Shown in pieces: positions 10,632 to 64,000 of a stretch of 64,000 nt of DNA. The stretch is from Terriglobia bacterium. Its GTDB lineage: Bacteria; Acidobacteriota; Terriglobia; Terriglobales; Acidobacteriaceae. The DNA lies in NCBI GenBank assembly GCA_020073565.1, contig JAIQEY010000021.1, forward strand, positions 1 to 64,000, read 5' to 3'. Numbering within the stretch: the stretch's first letter is position 1; each line of letters begins with the position of its first letter. The notes below the pieces were generated by a model. That model searched no databases, was not told where the DNA came from, and saw only the letters and a program-made list of their open reading frames with translations. The position numbers and the translations under genes are program-made.

Positions 10632-10723
10632 AGAAGACCCCCTGGAAATGAGAACGCTAATAGTAACTCCACGGCCCTGCGCTGTCATGCCGAGCAAGGA
10701 GTGTGCACGATTCTAAATTCATG

Positions 10724-10804
10724 AACCACAAAGGACACGAAGTCACACAAAGGTTTGAATCCCTGAGGATTTCCTTCGTGTTCCTTCCTGTCCTTGGTGG
10801 TTAA
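10724..10804. repeat. Long-hairpin element (AACCACAAAGGACACGAAG type)
   Basis: The left arm begins AACCACAAAGGACACGAAG. The right arm in reverse complement begins TTAACCACCAAGGACAGGAA. The arms are imperfect and made of ACRAAGGAC-like units. The right end supplies the TAA stop codon of the minus-strand esterase. It belongs to the same family as the elements at 15448, 51193 and 51707. Confidence 0.7.
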
Positions 10805-11676
10805 TCAGAGCCTCCTACTCCCTGAGACCCAAGACCGGAATACAAGAACTCCAGCGCTGCCGGAAACCGCGCCGCCCAAGCCGACTCGCTGTGCGGCGCG
10901 CCTTCCTCGATCTGAATCTTCAGTCGCCGCTCGTCCAATCCCGCCGCGCGCAAAATGTTTCCCAATTCGCGCGCATCGTTCACGGCTCTCCGGTCTTTCT
11001 CCGCCTGACCCACTTCCTGAGTGCCCATCCCCAGATAGACACGGAACGGCCAATCGCGAAACTGCCGGCACTCTTCCAGAATTCTGCAGTTCGCCACGAA
11101 CAGTGATGGGCTCTCAATCAACAATCGCCCGAACACTCCGGGCATCGCCAGTTGCGTATACAGCGTGATCAGCCCGCCCAGCGACGATCCACCCAGACCC
11201 GTATTCTCCGGTCCCTTGGCCACCGAATAGTATTTTTCGATCAGCGGCATCACTTCGCGCCGAAGAAAGTCCGGATAATGCTTCCCTTGCGGTCCAACCA
11301 CCTTCGGATCGGCGGACCGGTACGGGATGTATTCCCTCAACCGGTTTGTTCCCGTGTTATCGATGCCCACAATAATGACCGGCGCAATTTTCTTCTCGGC
11401 AATGAGCCGGCTCGCGGTTTCCCCCACTTGCCAATGCACACTGGCAAAAGCAGTCGTGGGCTCAAACAGGTTCTGCCCGTCATTCAAATAGAGCACCGGA
11501 TACCGAGTCTCGCCCCAGCCGTCATAATCCGGCGGCAGCCAGACCCGGACCGCCCGCGTATTCCGGAATATCCAGCTCTTCAACTCATGCAGCCACAAAC
11601 TGCCCCGGGCGACGGGAGGCGGGGCGGTCTGAGCAGGAGGACTCTTCAGTTTTGGATTGGATTTTTGCGCCGTCAC
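10801..11676 (-). CDS. Putative esterase, alpha/beta hydrolase (COG2819 type)
   Basis: The 291-residue protein belongs to the enterochelin-esterase/esterase D-like family. Conserved features are VWLPPDYDG, YPVLYLNDGQNLF, the nucleophile elbow GGSSLGG (Ser near 180) and a late His in APHSESAW. No signal peptide is evident and the N-terminus is Pro-rich. The substrate is unknown; carboxyl-ester hydrolysis is a family-based guess. Its stop codon lies inside a long-hairpin repeat, and a heptad array separates its start from the VKOR gene upstream. Confidence 0.8.
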   Translation of the reverse strand: MTAQKSNPKLKSPPAQTAPPPVARGSLWLHELKSWIFRNTRAVRVWLPPDYDGWGETRYPVLYLNDGQNLFEPTTAFASVHWQVGETASRLIAEKKIAPVIIVGIDNTGTNRLREYIPYRSADPKVVGPQGKHYPDFLRREVMPLIEKYYSVAKGPENTGLGGSSLGGLITLYTQLAMPGVFGRLLIESPSLFVANCRILEECRQFRDWPFRVYLGMGTQEVGQAEKDRRAVNDARELGNILRAAGLDERRLKIQIEEGAPHSESAWAARFPAALEFLYSGLGSQGVGGSD

Positions 11677-13587: not shown

Positions 13588-13726
13588 ACTCGCACCGCAG
13601 GAACTTACGCATCTCTGTCATCCCGACCGCAGCGCGCAGGAGCAAAGCGACTAGGCGCAAGTGGAGAGCCTGCCCTGAGCTTCCCGAAGGGGACCTTGTG
13701 TTCCTCCGCGTCTGGCAAGAATCACT

Positions 13727-15447: not shown

Positions 15448-15573
15448 TAACTCACCACAGAGACACAGAGAAACAATTGAGTTTATCAGAGAGTAACACC
15501 AGCACGGGACGACCGAAGCAGCGCAGCCAACACCAAATGATCCAAGATTCTTCTCTGTGCCTCTGTGGTGAAT
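15448..15573. repeat. Long-hairpin element (CACCACAGAGACACAGAG type)
   Basis: The left arm (about 15452-15476, TCACCACAGAGACACAGAG) pairs with the right arm (about 15548-15572, CTCTGTGCCTCTGTGGTGA) with few mismatches across a loop of about 70 nt. It fills the gap between the ACP and the acyl-AMP ligase genes. Confidence 0.7.
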
Positions 15574-18331: not shown

Positions 18332-18345
18332 GTGTTTTCTGAATT

Positions 18346-18407
18346 GTCATCCTGAGCGGAGTGGCTGATTCGCGAAGCGAATCGGCCGCGTAGTCGAAGG
18401 ACCCCTA
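18346..18407. repeat. GTCATCCTGAGCG...GAAGGACC dispersed repeat
   Basis: The element begins GTCATCCTGAGCGGAGTGG, contains the palindrome GATTCGC-GAA-GCGAATC and ends GTCGAAGGACCCC. Partial relatives occur at about 24308-24332 and 13617-13690. It is intergenic, between the pyruvyltransferase-family gene and the ligase. Confidence 0.6.
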
Positions 18408-18453
18408 CACGCTGAACTGGGCGCCGTCGCAGCACGGCGTTCTCCTGCCCCTG

Positions 18454-20999: not shown

Positions 21000-21114
21000 C
21001 TTGAACTCAGAACCCGTGTTCCTCAGTAAAGTGTTGGGTGTTGCAGCACTTGGAGCGCTGCGGTAAGCAACGTCGATGGAACAAAGCCAGCCCCGGAGGG
21101 GCGCCTGAAAATAG

Positions 21115-21134
21115 CCCGGCGCTTCAGCGCCGGG
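21115..21134 (-). terminator. CCCGGCGC hairpin between the two reductase genes
   Basis: A perfect 8-9-bp stem CCCGGCGCT/AGCGCCGGG is flanked by CCCCGGAGGGGCGC and GTCCCGTAGGGAC palindromes (21090-21172). The group looks like clustered intergenic repeats. It may attenuate transcription after the acyl-reductase gene, but no T-tract follows on the minus strand. Confidence 0.45.
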
Positions 21135-21221
21135 AAAAAAGGGACGATCGAGCAAGTCCCGTAGGGACGACTGAAGTGCTCACGCGCACTCTCGAACCGA
21201 GGGAACGCGACGGTACCGTGC

Positions 21222-25612: not shown

Positions 25613-25741
25613 CAGCACTCAGCACTCAGCATTTAGCACTTAGCATTTAGCACTTAGCAATTAGCCAGCCCGGGTGGGCGCCGGGGGCTTGCGGAGGCGT
25701 TTGCGAATGGCGGTGGCTAAGTGCTAATTGCTAAGTGCTCG
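25613..25741. repeat. Two facing heptanucleotide arrays (TAGCACT units)
   Basis: Eight 7-bp units (CAGCACT, CAGCACT, CAGCATT, TAGCACT, TAGCATT, TAGCACT, TAGCAAT, TAGCCAG) occupy 25613-25668. Three inverted units (CTAAGTG, CTAATTG, CTAAGTG) lie at 25717-25737. The two arrays can pair as a stem of about 17 bp across a GC-rich 50-nt loop. It fills the gap between the NADAR-like gene and chrA. Confidence 0.8.
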
Positions 25742-25743
25742 AC

Positions 25744-26910
25744 CTATCGCAACACCCATCCCGCCACTGACGCCGCGCCGACCAACCACGCCGAATTGAT
25801 CCGGAACCGCAGCAGCACAAACGCGCTCAGCAAAAACACGAGAAGCGTCATGCGATCGACAATGGCCGTTTTTGCGAGTTGCCAGGTCACGACCGCCATC
25901 AGCGCCAGCGATCCGGCAATCACGCCGTCGAGCGCGGCCGACGCCAACGCCGACCGCCGTATCCGCGGAATCACCGGACCACTCACCGCCACCAGTACAA
26001 ATCCCGGCAGAAAAATCCCCACCGTTGCCACCGCCGCCCCCATCCATCCGCCGACCACAAATCCAATGAACGTCGCCGTCGTGAACAGCGGACCAGGTGT
26101 GAACTGCCCGATGGCAACCGCATCAATCAATTGCTTGTCGGTCAGCCAGTGCAAGCGCTCGACGAACTCTGATTGCACGAACGGCAATAGCACATAGCCA
26201 CTACCGAACACGACCGACCCGATCTTAAGAAACGACAAAAACAGCCGCCCCAGCCCGAACGACACAGCCACTCCCGTCGTCACCAGGAGCGCGGGCACCA
26301 CAAAAATCTCCGGTGTTCCCAAAACCGACAGGGCCAGCAACCGGTTCTTCATCGCCAGCGAGGCGGCCGAAATGATTCCCGCAACCGCAAGAACCGCAAT
26401 CGGGCCGACCCCCAGGAGACAAAGCACCGCCGCCAATCCCGCAATCACCGCAAGCAGACTGGTTCGTACTCCCGTCTGCGCCAACTTCCCGAGCGCCTGG
26501 ATCACGATCGCCACTACCACCGGCTTGATCGTATACAAAACACCGGCGGCCTGCGGCAGCGTGCCATACCGCACATAAGCCCATGCGATCAGCGAGACAA
26601 TCACAGCCGCGGGAATGATGAAGCAACACCCCGCGACAATGAGTCCGCGCCAGCCACGCTTGAGTTGACCCACAAAGATCGCAACTTCTGTCGAACTCGG
26701 CCCCGGGATCAGATTCGCAGCAGCCAACCGGTCGAGGAATTCAGCCTCCGTAATCCAGCGCCGACGCCGCACGAATTCTTCTTCCATCATCGCGAGATGT
26801 GCGGCCGGCCCGCCAAATGCGATGGTCCCCAGTTTCAGAAAAACAAACGCAATCTCGGCAAGCGAAGCCTCCTGAATCGTTTTCTCGGCACCGACCCGCA
26901 GATCGCTCAC
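25744..26910 (-). CDS. chrA: Chromate transporter family protein (ChrA)
   Basis: The 388-residue membrane protein has the duplicated CHR domain. The first copy has FLKLGTIAFGGPAAHLAMMEEEFV, then LAAANLIPGPSSTEVAIFVG and hydrophobic helices. The second copy has FLKIGSVVFGSGYVLLPFVQSEFV and QLIDAVAIGQFTPGPLFTTATFIGF. About ten to twelve membrane spans are visible. The family effluxes chromate, perhaps with sulfate as the original substrate. The GTG start at 26910 overlaps the GNAT stop by 4 bp, so translation is coupled. Confidence 0.9.
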   Translation of the reverse strand: MSDLRVGAEKTIQEASLAEIAFVFLKLGTIAFGGPAAHLAMMEEEFVRRRRWITEAEFLDRLAAANLIPGPSSTEVAIFVGQLKRGWRGLIVAGCCFIIPAAVIVSLIAWAYVRYGTLPQAAGVLYTIKPVVVAIVIQALGKLAQTGVRTSLLAVIAGLAAVLCLLGVGPIAVLAVAGIISAASLAMKNRLLALSVLGTPEIFVVPALLVTTGVAVSFGLGRLFLSFLKIGSVVFGSGYVLLPFVQSEFVERLHWLTDKQLIDAVAIGQFTPGPLFTTATFIGFVVGGWMGAAVATVGIFLPGFVLVAVSGPVIPRIRRSALASAALDGVIAGSLALMAVVTWQLAKTAIVDRMTLLVFLLSAFVLLRFRINSAWLVGAASVAGWVLR

Positions 26911-40297: not shown

Positions 40298-40324
40298 CGC
40301 CGTCAGTATAAATCGGATGCTAGG

Positions 40325-40359
40325 TGGGAGCTTCGAGCTATGAGCCATGAGCCGCAAGA
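40325..40359. repeat. Heptanucleotide array (TTCGAGC/CATGAGC units)
   Basis: Five 7-bp units: TGGGAGC, TTCGAGC, TATGAGC, CATGAGC and CGCAAGA, just upstream of the exported SnoaL-like gene. Confidence 0.65.
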
Positions 40360-40403
40360 TTCGGGGCTCCGAGCAACCGAATTCTCGGACGTGCGAAAGT
40401 GGT

Positions 40404-40445
40404 CGCTCGTAGCGCGTGGCTCGTAGCTCAAAGCTGGAAGCCTCC
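40404..40445. repeat. Heptanucleotide array (GGCTCGT/AGCTCAA units)
   Basis: Six 7-bp units: CGCTCGT, AGCGCGT, GGCTCGT, AGCTCAA, AGCTGGA and AGCCTCC. It runs opposite in sense to the array at 40325 and can partly pair with it across 45 bp. Confidence 0.65.
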
Positions 40446-40492
40446 AACACAGCACGAGCCTATCAGCGACCGCTGTGTTCTAATCAGAAGCG

Positions 40493-49750: not shown

Positions 49751-51196
49751 TTGGGATTGAATCGCGTCGACCTGCTGATTATCGCGGCCTATTTGGCCGG
49801 CATCACGCTGTTTGGTCTGCGCTTTCGCAAGCGGCAGCGAACCATGCGGGATTACTTCCTGGCCGATCGCAACATTCCCTGGTGGGCGATTTCCCTTTCA
49901 ATCGTGGCGGCAGAAACCAGCACTCTCACCATCATCAGTATTCCTGGACTCGCCTACGATTCGAACCTGACCTTCCTCCAAGTCGTCATGGGATATGTCG
50001 TCGGACGAGTCATCATCAGCTTTGTGCTGCTGCCGCATTATTTTCGTGGCGACCTGTACACCGCCTATCAGTTGATCGAGCGCAGATTCGGTCCACGCCT
50101 CCGCACCGTCACGGCAGGGCTGTTCTTGCTGACGCGAGCGGCGGCAGAAGGCGTACGAGTGTATGCCGTGTCGATTGTGGTCTCCATTGCGCTAGGGACA
50201 GGTGAGGTTACGTCGATCGCAATCATCACGCTGCTGACGCTGATCTACACATTTGAAGGCGGACTGGCAGCAGTCATCTGGACCGATGTGGTGCAGACGT
50301 TCATTTATGTCGGCGGGACAGCGGTCGGATTAGTCACGATTCTGCATCTAGTCCCGGGTGGCTGGAACTCGGTGCAAGCCGCAGCCGAGAGCTTCCACAA
50401 ATTCCAGGTCTTCGACATGCCGGTTCTCGCGCACTGGCCGTATCTGGATCTACTGAAGCCTTACACACTATGGGCGGGAATCATTGGCGGTGCAATTTTC
50501 ACGACTGCCAGCCACGGCACCGATCAACTGATCGTGCAGCGATTGCTGGCGGCGAGGAATCAGCGGCAGTCGGTGCTGGCCCTCCTTTCAAGCGGCGCCG
50601 CGATCCTGTTTCAGTTTGCTCTGTTTCTCTTCGTAGGCGTGATGCTGTTCGCCTATTACCGCGTACCTTCCGCTACCTTTGGGCGCGCGGACCGAATTTA
50701 TCCAACGTTCATCGTGAGCCGTATGCCGCATGGAATTTCAGGGCTGCTGATCGCGGCCATCCTGGCAGCGGCGATGTCGAACTTGAGTGCGGCGCTCAAC
50801 TCGCTGTCATCCAGCACAATGATGGACTTCTACTTTCGCTTTCGCCCGGAAGTAAATGAAATTAAGCGACTTCGCCTATCGCGCCTGGCGACCATTGTGT
50901 GGGCCATCGTGCTCCTCGGACTGGCCGTCATCGCCCTGCACCGAGTCGGTCGCGTAGTCGAAGTAGGACTGCAGATCGCATCCGTCGCCTACGGTGCACT
51001 GCTGGGAGTCTTCCTTCTGGGCGTGCTGACCAAGCGGGCGAATCAGAATGGGGCGATCATCGGAATGGTTGCGGGGTTCGTGATTGAACTTTACCTGTGG
51101 CTCGGTTCCGGTGTGCCTTGGACTTGGTGGGTCGCGATCGGGACGTGCGTGACATTCGCGGTCGGGTATGCCGCCAGCTTGCTGCCAGAGTCTTAA
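49751..51196 (+). CDS. Sodium:solute symporter (SSS family)
   Basis: The 481-residue membrane protein has about thirteen hydrophobic helices. SSS features are YFLADRNIPWWAISLSIVAAETSTLTIIS near the N-terminus, EGGLAAVIWTDVVQTFIYVGG and ILAAAMSNLSAALNSLSSSTMMDFY with the conserved sodium-site Ser region. It imports a sugar, amino acid or organic acid with Na+. The start is TTG at 49751 with GGAAGG upstream; TTG at 49757 is an alternative. Its TAA stop is the first part of the long-hairpin element at 51193. Proximity to a sugar kinase suggests a sugar substrate. Confidence 0.9.
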   Translation: MGLNRVDLLIIAAYLAGITLFGLRFRKRQRTMRDYFLADRNIPWWAISLSIVAAETSTLTIISIPGLAYDSNLTFLQVVMGYVVGRVIISFVLLPHYFRGDLYTAYQLIERRFGPRLRTVTAGLFLLTRAAAEGVRVYAVSIVVSIALGTGEVTSIAIITLLTLIYTFEGGLAAVIWTDVVQTFIYVGGTAVGLVTILHLVPGGWNSVQAAAESFHKFQVFDMPVLAHWPYLDLLKPYTLWAGIIGGAIFTTASHGTDQLIVQRLLAARNQRQSVLALLSSGAAILFQFALFLFVGVMLFAYYRVPSATFGRADRIYPTFIVSRMPHGISGLLIAAILAAAMSNLSAALNSLSSSTMMDFYFRFRPEVNEIKRLRLSRLATIVWAIVLLGLAVIALHRVGRVVEVGLQIASVAYGALLGVFLLGVLTKRANQNGAIIGMVAGFVIELYLWLGSGVPWTWWVAIGTCVTFAVGYAASLLPES

Positions 51197-51285
51197 CCGC
51201 AAAGCACGCTAGGGACTCGCAAAGGTCGCAAAAGAACAGTTTCTCTTTGCGTTCTTTGCGAGTCCCTAGCGTCCTTTGCGGTTAA
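51193..51285. repeat. Long-hairpin element A flanking the GxxExxY gene
   Basis: The arms at 51193-51224 and 51254-51285 match at 31 of 32 positions (outer end TTAACCGCAAAG). Inner bases extend the pairing further. Arms are built of units such as CGCAAAGCACGC, TAGGGACTCGC. The outer TAA is the symporter's stop codon. Confidence 0.9.
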
Positions 51286-51308
51286 ACTTTTTCGGGGCGA
51301 GGATGTCT

Positions 51309-51710
51309 ATGGCAAAGATTGATATTAGCCGTGAAGTGATCGGCGCAGCTTTGACGATTCACCGCAAGCTCGGACCTGGCCTTCTCGAATCAGCCTATGA
51401 GGCTTGCCTCGCATATGAATTAGAGAAGGCAGGGTACAGGGTGGAACGGCAGAAAGCAGTCCCGCTCATCTATGAGGCCGTGAAGCTAGACTGCGGCTTC
51501 CGGGCGGATCTTGTTGTGGACGACAAGCTGGTACTGGAACTTAAGTGCAAGGAGACCCTGCAGCATCCTGTCGATGAGGCACAACTTCTCTCGTACTTGC
51601 GCCTCTTGAACATTCCAATCGGATTGCTGATCAATTTTCACGTAGCTCTGCTGAAGGACGGGATCAAGCGGATGGTCAACAACTATCGTGAGGAGGAGGA
51701 TTTCCTTTAA
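51309..51710 (+). CDS. GxxExxY-family PDDEXK-like protein
   Basis: The 133-residue protein has VIGAALTIHRKLGPGLLESAYEACLAYELEKAG with the G-x-x-E-x-x-Y motif, then FRADLVVDDKLVLELKC with the D and E-x-K of a PDDEXK nuclease core, and AQLLSYLRLLNIPIGLLINF. This family (PDDEXK_3-like) is widespread, often in repeats-rich genomes, and has no established function; nuclease activity is plausible. GAGG lies 6 nt before the ATG at 51309. The gene sits precisely between two long-hairpin elements, and its TAA stop is part of the second. Confidence 0.88.
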   Translation: MAKIDISREVIGAALTIHRKLGPGLLESAYEACLAYELEKAGYRVERQKAVPLIYEAVKLDCGFRADLVVDDKLVLELKCKETLQHPVDEAQLLSYLRLLNIPIGLLINFHVALLKDGIKRMVNNYREEEDFL

Positions 51711-51798
51711 CCGCAAAGTTCGCCAAGGACTCGCAAATGTCACAAAGAAAAACTCTCCTTTGCGTACTTTGCGAGTCCTTAGCGCCCTTTGCGGTTAA
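51707..51798. repeat. Long-hairpin element B flanking the GxxExxY gene
   Basis: The arms at 51707-51737 and 51768-51798 match at 28 of 31 positions. Outer end TTAACCGCAAAG is identical to element A. The TAA at 51708-51710 ends the GxxExxY gene. Confidence 0.9.
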
Positions 51799-51818: not shown

Positions 51819-53192
51819 ATGTCAACCATCAGCCAGCGCCCCGAACTAGCCCGCGACCTCGCCCTCTCCCACGCAGGAGCGGTCGTGGTGGGAACAATTA
51901 TCGGAAGCGGCATCTTCCTGGTTCCAGCGGAGATGATGCAGGCGGTCGGCTCGGCGCGAGTAGTGTATCTGGTGTGGGTGGTGGGAGGTCTTCTCTCCTT
52001 CTTTGGCGCGCTCACCTACGCGGAACTCGGGGCCATGAAGCCGCAGGCCGGCGGAGAGTATGTCTACGTTCGCGATGCCTACGGACCGCTCGCCGGATTC
52101 CTCTATGCGTGGACCTGGTTCCTGATCGCCAAGCCGGCATCCATTGCGACGGTTACAACCGGCCTCGTTCGCATTCTCGGCACCTTCCCCGTCTTTTCTT
52201 TTTTCTCCCATCCCTGCGTCACCCACCCCGTCACCATCAACTATGGACAACTGGTGGCGATTGGCGCGGCGGTCCTGGTTTCGTGGCTGAACTACATCGG
52301 CATTCGCAAGGCGGGAGAATTTCAGTTTCTATTCACGTTGCTCAAGGTCGCGATCATCCTCGGAATCGTCGCAGTCGGTTTTTCCTATCACAGCGGAACC
52401 TGGGCGAACTTTGCCACCGAGTTTACCGGGGCCAAGGGTGGAGTCGCCGGATTCTTTGCCGCGTTGGTGGCCGCGCTCTGGGCCTACGACGGGTGGAACG
52501 ATCTGAACATGGTCGCAGGAGAAATTCGCAATCCCCAGCGCAATGTTCCTCTCTCGCTGATTTGGGGCGTGGCCACGGTAGGAGCTCTCTACATTCTGGT
52601 GAACGCCGCCGTGCAGTATGTGTTGCCAGCCGCAGCCGTAGCGGCGTCGGAGCGGCCCGCCTCAGACGCGGTAGCGCTCGTCCTTGGACACGGGGGCGCC
52701 AGCCTGGTTTCGGCCGGCATGGCTCTGTCGATGCTCGTGACTCTGAATGGAACCATCATGAGTGGAGCGCGCGTTCCCTTCGCCATGGCTCGCGATGGGT
52801 ATTTCTTCAAGTCGATCGCGGAGGTTCATCCTCGGTTCCGCACTCCATCCGTTGCCCTCGTTGTGCAGTGTGCCCTGGCGATCGTCTTGCTGTTGCTGGG
52901 AGGTAATTTCCGGCAGTTCTTCTCGCTCGCAATCTTCGCCGAGTGGCTCTTCTACATGATTGCAGGCAGCACAGTGTTTGTTTTTCGCCGTCGCGAACCG
53001 TACGCCGACCGCCCCTATCGCGTGTTCGGATATCCGGTGGTTCCGGCAGTGTTTATCGTGGTTTCCGCAGTACTCCTTTACTATACATTTACCGACAACC
53101 TGCGGAATTCCGCAGCCGGAACGGCGGCGATTCTGGCAGGGATTCCAGTGTTCTACTTTTTTGCGCAGCGGAAGTCAGTCACACCAAAGTAA
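51819..53192 (+). CDS. Amino acid permease (APC superfamily)
   Basis: The 457-residue protein has about twelve membrane helices. APC pattern: VVGTIIGSGIFLVPAEMM in helix 1, GALTYAELGAMKPQAGGEYVYVRDAYG in helix 2/loop, LWAYDGWNDLNMVAGEIRNPQRNVPLSL in helix 6 and TLNGTIMSGARVPFAMARDGYFFK. This is closest to the LAT/SteT-like exchangers. It transports or exchanges amino acids. The start at 51819 is preferred over a GTG-like start 30 bp earlier which lies in repeat sequence. It follows element B directly. Confidence 0.9.
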   Translation: MSTISQRPELARDLALSHAGAVVVGTIIGSGIFLVPAEMMQAVGSARVVYLVWVVGGLLSFFGALTYAELGAMKPQAGGEYVYVRDAYGPLAGFLYAWTWFLIAKPASIATVTTGLVRILGTFPVFSFFSHPCVTHPVTINYGQLVAIGAAVLVSWLNYIGIRKAGEFQFLFTLLKVAIILGIVAVGFSYHSGTWANFATEFTGAKGGVAGFFAALVAALWAYDGWNDLNMVAGEIRNPQRNVPLSLIWGVATVGALYILVNAAVQYVLPAAAVAASERPASDAVALVLGHGGASLVSAGMALSMLVTLNGTIMSGARVPFAMARDGYFFKSIAEVHPRFRTPSVALVVQCALAIVLLLLGGNFRQFFSLAIFAEWLFYMIAGSTVFVFRRREPYADRPYRVFGYPVVPAVFIVVSAVLLYYTFTDNLRNSAAGTAAILAGIPVFYFFAQRKSVTPK

Positions 53193-63736: not shown

Positions 63737-64000
63737 TTATTTACTCGAAACTAGCACGATTTGGCAAATTTCGCGAAGTGGCGGGTGGGCTTCGAGCTTC
63801 GAGCTTCGAGCACGCAAGGCCGCTAACGAACGACCGCTTTCTTCACAAGCTGGACTGGCTAAACATGCTGAGGTCAACATCCGTTGAACTTCGTCCGTTT
63901 GCCTAGCAAGCAAGCCGTACACGCCCTTCGATAGCAAGTCCAGATCGTGCGCGAGCAACAGATGATACTCAAGTTCTGCAGCCGAACCGCGCGCGATGTG
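63737..64000 (-). CDS. Four-helix-bundle protein (23S rRNA IVP family), 5' end outside window
   Basis: The frame is open from the window edge. Residues SAAELEYHLLLAHDLDLLSKGVYGLLARQTDEVQRMLTS match the second half of the S23/IVP four-helix-bundle family, proteins first seen encoded in intervening sequences of 23S rRNA genes. Then comes an unusual tail (LASPACEESGRSLAALRARSSKLEAHPPLR) whose end is encoded by a heptad array. The usual proteins stop soon after the RML motif. The N-terminal half is missing only because the window ends. Function of the family is not established. Confidence 0.8.
   Translation of the reverse strand, partial: HIARGSAAELEYHLLLAHDLDLLSKGVYGLLARQTDEVQRMLTSACLASPACEESGRSLAALRARSSKLEAHPPLREICQIVLVSSK
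63785..63819. repeat. Heptanucleotide array in the four-helix-bundle gene
   Basis: Five 7-bp units: GTGGGCT, TCGAGCT, TCGAGCT, TCGAGCA and CGCAAGG. It is translated on the minus strand as part of the C-terminal tail (LRARSSKLEAH). The TCGAGCT unit is shared with the array after mutL. Confidence 0.75.

Follow-up and report, generated by a model that had tools for sequence, protein, structure and literature searches.

Units of repetitive extragenic palindromes (REP) and REP-associated tyrosine transposases (RAYT) consist of a single palindrome-flanked gene with gene-less palindromic copies elsewhere, in intergenic positions, while homing endonuclease elements carry a nuclease gene at a fixed site, occur as presence and absence alleles and are kept under purifying selection. 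REP palindromes are described, in the available part of the source, as 20-40 bp long and GTAG/CGTC-tagged (PMC3733652). The intervening sequences of 23S rRNA harbor a small open reading frame (ORF) between complementary ends, and the accessible text on them calls their origin, function and movement unclear (PMC4990558). TAACTGA heptamers are abundant in Beggiatoaceae and cyanobacteria, mostly in intergenic regions and often near a start codon, and the sections at hand propose an unidentified repeat-binding protein as the possible mobile element behind them (PMC4679880). The present study concerns a gene of the GxxExxY family which lies between two long palindromes in a stretch of 64,000 nucleotides from a Terriglobia bacterium (contig JAIQEY010000021.1, positions 1 to 64,000), here termed the window. 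Our analysis suggests that GxxExxY genes and inverted arrays of short repeats (iterons) at their sides form a widespread intergenic genetic element of many bacteria and some archaea, which we take, at a probability of about one half, to be a slow DNA element resident at its site, with a small PD-(D/E)XK protein that recognises the iterons at the ends of its own element. The element apparently is undescribed: the literature searched, mostly without subscription papers and preprints, held no description of GxxExxY genes with flanking repeats, mentioned the family by name only and yielded no paper text containing the iteron strings.

The window locus is composed of the following features:

49751-51196, + strand: gene for a sodium:solute symporter (PF00474), the upstream neighbour and flank of the orthologous site
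51193-51285: palindrome A, with CGCAAAG-type iterons in two mutually inverted arrays and the outer ends TTAACC/GGTTAA
51303-51710, + strand: GxxExxY gene (PF13366, TIGR04256), ATG at 51303 or 51309, stop codon TAA at 51708-51710
51707-51798: palindrome B, a second copy about 80% identical to palindrome A
51819-53192, + strand: gene for an amino acid permease (PF13520) with an ATG start, the downstream neighbour and flank of the orthologous site

All three genes are thus located on the + strand of the window. The original prediction of a GxxExxY gene between two long palindromes was borne out by arm complementarity, folding, a stem scan and profile matches. The arms of palindrome A (51193-51232/51246-51285) comprise 40 nt and are 93% complementary, those of palindrome B (51707-51747/51758-51798) comprise 41 nt and are 83% complementary, and the RNA folding energies amount to -66.6 and -49.2 kcal/mol, respectively. 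In a gapped stem scan the two palindromes scored 34.5 and 25.0, compared to at most 13.5 in two dinucleotide-shuffled versions of the entire window. Palindrome A contains the iterons CGCAAAG at 51198 and 51218 and CTTTGCG at 51245, 51254 and 51274, palindrome B contains CGCAAAG at 51712, CACAAAG at 51741 and CTTTGCG at 51758, 51767 and 51787, and the motif AACCGCAAAGNNCGC, with at most two mismatches, occurs 14 times in the window, where 3.3 occurrences are expected and none of 100 shuffles reaches 14. The stop codon of the symporter gene (51194-51196) lies inside the TTAACC outer end of palindrome A (its first TAA), as does that of the GxxExxY gene inside the TTAACC outer end of palindrome B. 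The encoded protein matches PF13366 at 6e-38 with 130.2 bits (cut-off 22) and TIGR04256 at 6e-40 with 136.2 bits (cut-off 35).

GxxExxY genes were found in 58 of 101 related genomes. The arrangement was scored in a first set of 80 stretches around the strongest GxxExxY matches in related genomes and in a second set of 80 out of 586 GxxExxY loci from named genomes of many phyla, 76 of which were scored; the sets share one locus (L209, from an Acidobacteriaceae metagenome-assembled genome, equals L119 in genome G007), which has an identical gene and falls below the arm threshold in both. On account of this identity the related genomes are taken to be Acidobacteria. Control ORFs of at least 90 aa were taken from the same loci by crude calls (n=402 in the first set, n=513 in the second), and the threshold for paired arms was a score of at least 16, which was not reached by any shuffle (0/800 and 0/380, respectively). 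Inverted arms bracket the GxxExxY gene at 62 of 80 loci in the first set, compared to 4 of 402 control ORFs (p 2e-56), and at 46 of 76 loci in the second, compared to 7 of 513 (p 2e-40), or at 44 of 71 loci when the Acidobacteria are left out. In the second set, arms were observed in Bacteroidetes (20/36), Verrucomicrobia (6/7), Planctomycetes (4/6), Archaea (3/3), the Proteobacteria classes (4/5), Cyanobacteria (2/3), Chloroflexi (2/3), Ignavibacteriae (2/4), Acidobacteria (2/5) and at one of four single loci. At 53 loci, compared to about one expected, the upstream arm finds its best partner among 156 downstream flanks in its own flank, and at 85 loci the own flank is among the top three. 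GxxExxY genes also occur on plasmids (6 records), and in the three records inspected the gene with its arms lies inside a co-directional gene pair, namely radA/FAD-dependent protein in Bacteroides, fabD/fabG in Sphingomonas and ade/mannose-1-phosphate guanylyltransferase in Bernardetia.

Most commonly, a single iteron array resides on each side of the gene, the two being mutually inverted. Complete hairpins on both sides were observed at 5 of 80 and 3 of 76 GxxExxY loci (controls 3/402 and 3/513), so that the originally predicted bracketing by complete hairpins is true of the window locus but a rare sub-form elsewhere, and the window copy is a variant of the general element with a complete palindrome on each side. 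The window genome itself has GxxExxY at three loci, one of them split by a frameshift; no strong hairpin was found within 1.5 kb of the two other loci, and inverted iteron arms are present at both. Accordingly, the enrichment of repeats around GxxExxY genes is strong when paired arms are counted, whereas for a strong hairpin on either side (within 200 nt for controls) it is seen in the first set (24/80 compared to 41/402 control ORFs, p 2e-5) but is not significant in the second (14/76 compared to 60/513, p 0.14). The latter counts, with hairpins near many control ORFs and a second-set gene that is not significantly richer, would be in line with ordinary intergenic palindromes whose association with the gene is an artefact of sampling around one gene family. 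As the controls from the very same loci fail the paired-arm test and the result repeats in a multi-phylum set that has a single locus in common with the first, we consider such an artefact extremely improbable.

The arms consist of about three iterons of the consensus CRCNRAK, which is present in at least three copies at 109 of the 123 loci with an arm score of at least 14, mostly with a period of 8, 9 or 10 bp and most commonly as a cluster of three in a row. The spelling of the iterons differs with the protein: loci with a GLLE protein have iterons ending in AG (G-type) in 59 cases and T-type iterons in one, while loci with a GFLE protein have iterons ending in AT (T-type) in 12 cases and G-type iterons in one (Fisher p 9e-12; typing by 7-mers, with 8 of 81 loci omitted as motif or iterons were untypable). 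Within single genomes this rule is kept in 7 of the 8 genomes holding both kinds, and the eighth is an apparent miscall, since L073 was typed as T-type and its arms read CGCCGAG; the count has been left as is. Over 107 loci protein distance correlates with iteron distance (Mantel r 0.50, p<=0.0005), and a correlation is also found within the 46 GLLE loci of the relatives (Mantel r 0.40). A covariation of this kind would be the expected outcome if the protein recognises the ends of its element.

Iteron palindromes were also found without a gene. Two in the window are of the same iteron class as the arms:

10721-10805: gene-less palindrome (AACCACAAAGGACACGAAG...), kept in the sister genome G010, where 5 further places match it
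15452-15571: gene-less palindrome (TCACCACAGAGACACAGAG...), also present in G010

Of the related hairpins lacking the gene that had been noted in the window, those at 25635-25739 and 40318-40454 belong to a different 7-nt class. A palindrome of 7-nt iterons (AGCACTTAGCATTTAGC...) at 25615-25745 of the window is absent from the same place in G010. At least five iteron pairs occur in 33 of 58 genomes having GxxExxY as opposed to 9 of 43 without a detected gene (p 3e-5), and in 44% as opposed to 13% of the genomes outside the genus (p 4e-4). Iteron-rich genomes in which GxxExxY was not detected may have lost the gene, may hold a gene that was missed or may have another source of repeats. Taken together with the presence of palindromes of other families at the same sites, the abundance of gene-less palindromes, even in some genomes without the gene, might indicate that the palindromes are spread by other machinery and that the GxxExxY gene is a passenger between them. 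Yet of all 1468 ORFs in the loci of both sets, 102 have bracketing arms of at least 17, and 78 of these are GxxExxY genes by motif, 7 overlap one, 9 are neighbours and 8 are others, the last including four PF05635 genes and one further PF13366 gene. Since, in addition, the iteron spelling tracks the protein and the iteron counts correlate with the gene, a mere passenger role is clearly unlikely. In L064, L070, L071 and L085, an asparaginyl-tRNA-synthetase-like ORF is bracketed by iteron arms as well, apparently because arrays flank both its sides in several genera.

Numbered from the ATG at 51309, the conserved residues of the window protein are G22, E27, Y30, D67, E77-x-K79, Q92, N109 and F110. 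These nine residues are invariant in 51 sequences; among 157 proteins G22, E27, E77, Q92 and N109 are present in all, and Y30, D67, K79 and F110 have one exception each, so that the putative catalytic residues D67, E77, K79 and Q92 occur in 156, 157, 156 and 157 proteins, respectively. The proteins of L071 (D67H) and L160 (K79R), each with a changed catalytic residue, are possibly inactive residents. Structural modeling of the window protein (133 aa) gave a confident prediction (pLDDT 92.4), and the nearest solved folds are those of Cas4 (4ic1, 4r5q), LHK-Exo (3syy), lambda exonuclease (3sm4) and the DNA-bound archaeal resolvase 2wiw. The matches have TM scores of 0.40-0.52 by query length; Cas4 4ic1 (E 7e-4) is the sole match below 0.001, and the root-mean-square deviation (rmsd) of the superposition is 3.9-5 Å only for 4r5q and 2wiw and 12-16 Å for the others. 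No sequence relative of the protein was found in the PDB (best E 0.31). The predicted structure and the conserved residues suggest a minimal PD-(D/E)XK nuclease with some likeness to the folds of Cas4, lambda exonuclease and Hjc. A known defence gene was considered and rejected, as PADLOC gave no match for two of three proteins (that of the window and that of L064) and a weak one for the third (L083, best E 0.004; Cas4 0.005). Likewise, a phage-borne gene was rejected: there was no match in the phage set and, for two proteins, no PHROG below E 0.01; two GxxExxY matches were found in viral contigs.

Filled and empty states of the element were compared at three orthologous sites in 24 genomes of the window genus, with both flanks found in 23 genomes at the window site, 16 resolved at site 2 and 20 listed at site 3. 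At the window site, the GxxExxY gene is present in 3 of 23 genomes only (G000, G001, G021), which are ungrouped on a flank tree whose branches are mostly weakly supported, so that gain and loss are not separable on it. By eye, 19 of the 20 gene-free alleles contain one whole, half or decayed iteron palindrome at this place, which lies between ends resembling TTGAACC and GGTTAGAATCT; at a score of at least 11, the stem scan calls a stem in only 5 of the 20. G022 has no palindrome. Site 2 lies beside a gene which, from its sequence, we take to be asparaginyl-tRNA-synthetase-like. Four genomes (G002, G010, G001, G018) have GxxExxY elements with CGCAGAG iterons at this site, and three (G014, G020, G000, the gene being split in G000) have a diverged GxxExxY element with CGCCGAG iterons, resembling those that occupy this site in other genera (L064, L070, L075, L085). 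Palindromes of 7-nt iterons occupy the site in G007, G003, G009, G012, G011, G015 and G013 and, in partial form, in G016; G019 is element-free, with about 8 nt between stop and start, and in G018 a CGCCGAG remnant lies immediately outside the CGCAGAG element. At site 3, elements with CACGGAG iterons reside in G000, G008, G012, G004 and G002, while G015 has retained the arms and lost much of the gene; in G005, a remnant of the left arm precedes a third-family palindrome (ATCGGGTG type). This third family occurs alone, whole or partial, in G020, G007, G017, G018, G003 and G001; mixtures or unrelated inserts were observed in G023, G014, G011, G010, G009 and G013, and G022 is without an element. 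Third-family palindromes with iterons of about 8 nt (ATCGGGTGATCGG...) were noted in the site 3 spacers L327-L329, L331, L334, L338 and L340, and no gene bracketed by them turned up in the loci scanned. The empty-site comparison thus yielded filled, gene-deleted, other-family-palindrome and element-free alleles at three orthologous sites, and these sites turn over among several palindrome families. A search for empty sites by way of E. coli gave no DNA match.

Intact copies of the gene are under strong purifying selection, strongly indicating that the protein does something, either for itself or for the host: of 17 orthologous GxxExxY pairs, 15 have dN 0.03-0.12, dS 0.5-2.4 and dN/dS 0.04-0.15, and the two pairs with the window copy have dN 0.18, with a dS that is not estimable. 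Broken copies are also common, as ten GxxExxY loci among the related genomes consist of two adjacent fragments. The low dN/dS between orthologues at a fixed locus, the occupation of the same loci across genera and the covariation of protein and iterons are features that would also be found if the gene served the host, as a regulator or as a repair or defence nuclease, with the arrays as operators or working sites, the gene-less palindromes as a regulon or as cleavage sites, and nothing mobile about them. However, for autoregulation an additional inverted array on the downstream side is not needed, yet arms are found on both sides at most loci. Moreover, the gene is present in just three of the 23 genomes at the window site, and the ten fragmented loci look like broken genes. 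The PADLOC result likewise speaks against a defence role, and we regard a host-serving gene as unlikely.

A similar architecture was observed at genes of an unrelated family, PF05635, which is the family of the rRNA intervening-sequence protein. At 22 of 30 PF05635 loci in the related genomes (L256-L285) inverted arms score at least 15.5, the largest score of 300 shuffles being 14.0; 13 of the 30 loci had been taken in the wrong orientation, an error that moves the stop used and leaves the flank pairing unaffected. The arms are composed of 7-nt iterons such as AGGTCTC or AGTTCTC, and the genes stand alone and encode a protein unrelated to GxxExxY. One PF05635 gene is located on the window contig (G000:C56:63869-64186; L277), from window positions 63790-64000 onward, next to what is presumably, judging from its sequence, a topoisomerase-I-like ORF; it has GCTTCGA-type 7-nt iterons and an arm score of 14.5. 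This parallel, the long and stable stems and the often intercistronic and co-directional placement might argue for an RNA-level element similar to the 23S rRNA intervening sequence, in which the arms would form an mRNA stem around the gene, as an RNase III site or an insulator. Constraint on an RNA stem is expected to leave more mismatches of the G-U type than of the A-C type. The arm mismatches of GxxExxY loci, in contrast, number 79:79 and 96:94, in total 175:173, and those of PF05635 loci 30 and 34, respectively, and as there is no excess of the G-U type the arms look maintained at the DNA level. The excess of co-directional upstream neighbours is weak too, with 60/76 compared to 118/179 control genes (p 0.05) and 53/65 compared to 254/333 (p 0.42). 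An RNA-stem element was therefore rejected on the lack of a G-U bias and appears very unlikely to us. It might tentatively be speculated that GxxExxY genes, with CRCNRAK iterons of 8-10 bp, and stand-alone genes for PF05635 four-helix bundles, with YAGNKNN iterons of 7 nt, represent one class of iteron-armed intergenic elements. Each protein would then read the palindromes of its own clade, and in bacteria and archaea alike the elements would home into and replace one another at shared gene junctions. If so, the heptameric repeats known from cyanobacteria and Beggiatoaceae, as well as the 23S rRNA intervening sequences, would have a source in such elements, and the PF05635 parallel bears on the origin and movement of the latter (PMC4990558) and on the reader of the former (PMC4679880), as far as both are treated in the accessible texts.

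For the slow, site-resident element that we favour, the following course might be envisaged. The GxxExxY protein would bind the iteron ends of its own element and nick or cut its own arms, perhaps as an extruded hairpin; repair would then copy or convert the element into those alleles of its site that hold only a palindrome or no element at all, and only rarely would the element reach a new intergenic site. Gene-less palindromes would accordingly be deletion products or targets of the element. A number of observations weigh against this scenario. There is no sign of recent transposition: among 81 loci of the relatives, with one genome per species so that within-species events are invisible, GxxExxY pairs at 72-88% nucleotide identity invariably have one or both flanks in common, in nearly all cases both, including pairs from different genera, and within one genome the most similar genes at separate loci reach 70% identity (L129/L131). 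The aligned alleles of the three orthologous sites, whose flanks are 10-30% diverged, showed no recognisable target-site duplication. Active transposition was rejected for this reason, that the closest gene pairs share their locus, and the originally proposed autonomous mobile unit is, as regards ongoing mobility, unsupported by the shared flanks, the target sites and the strong purifying selection, the last being equally expected of a host-useful gene. Furthermore, the arm threshold is missed by 18 of 80 and 30 of 76 GxxExxY loci, and at least five iteron pairs are present in nine of the 43 genomes without a detected gene, of which G003, G009, G026, G085 and G088 have 24-53. The covariation can come from joint inheritance of gene and arms, which needs no binding and would contribute in any case, so that it is no proof of binding. 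The fold matches are weak (one E below 0.001, top match rmsd about 12 Å), a catalytic residue is changed in 2 of 157 proteins (L071, L160), at least the former of which keeps its arms, and the two intact palindromes of the window allele are not predicted by a simple homing in which the gene interrupts the site that it targets.

The GxxExxY family is large and owes its name only to a motif, and a defined DNA end with covarying spelling provides a testable substrate for it; in addition, the link to GxxExxY allows many intergenic palindromes without a label to be interpreted. Should the nuclease act on the arms, a class of elements would be run by one small PD-(D/E)XK protein and not by a transposase. 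The window contains further repeats. An Acido-Lenti-1 RNA (21089-21134) lies inside a sequence of about 105 bp (21085-21194) with 13 further matches in G010, and about 65 bp of this sequence have no counterpart at the same place in G010; thus, the Acido-Lenti-1 RNA family may belong to a repeat that is dispersed. Other dispersed repeats were found at 18345-18409 (15 further G010 matches) and 13611-13708 (6 further G010 matches), and a perfect 19-bp inverted repeat with a 34-nt loop at 145-216 is unlike the iteron families.

In comparison to the known systems, the likeness to REP/RAYT that had been proposed holds as an analogy of layout, with palindromic repeats flanking a single gene and dispersed gene-less copies in intergenic positions, but enzyme family and repeats are unrelated: GxxExxY is a PD-(D/E)XK and not a Y1 HUH protein, only PF13366 was found in the bracketed protein, and the repeats are inverted arrays of 8-10-bp iterons, with the gene usually between two half-palindromes. 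Transposons with terminal inverted repeats and miniature inverted-repeat transposable elements (MITEs) resemble the element in their inverted ends (62/80 and 46/76 loci), a gene-deleted derivative and multi-copy arms; in contrast to these, it has no transposase domain, neither recent copies at new sites nor a target duplication were seen, and it resides at the same site for long. With the 23S rRNA intervening sequences and their S23/IVP protein (PF05635) it shares a small ORF between complementary ends, according to the available text (PMC4990558), but GxxExxY belongs to an unrelated family (PF13366), lies between two transporter genes in the window and shows no sign of an RNA-level constraint. 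The TAACTGA repeats are similar as short-period, mostly intergenic iterons often near a start codon, yet they are 7-nt direct repeats like the PF05635-type iterons, not 8-10-bp CRCNRAK, and no protein is linked to them in the accessible part of the source (PMC4679880). Cas4, lambda exonuclease, LHK-Exo and Hjc provide the closest solved folds and share the D..ExK..QxxxY pattern, but the GxxExxY protein comprises only 133 aa and is without a sequence relative in the PDB. Like homing endonuclease elements, the GxxExxY element has a nuclease-like gene under purifying selection and a fixed site that is filled in some genomes and empty in others; unlike them, it is not inside a coding or rRNA gene, it has its own iteron ends and several elements occur per site. 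If the target were an entire palindrome, destruction of the site upon homing would fit the loci with half-palindromes, whereas the window allele keeps two whole palindromes. Protein, ends and behaviour together match no named class tested. In its arms and its gene-less copies the element is reminiscent of transposons and REP/RAYT, and in its fixed site, its filled and empty alleles and the purifying selection it resembles homing elements; on the reading favoured here it is closer to a site-resident homing element than to a hopping transposon.

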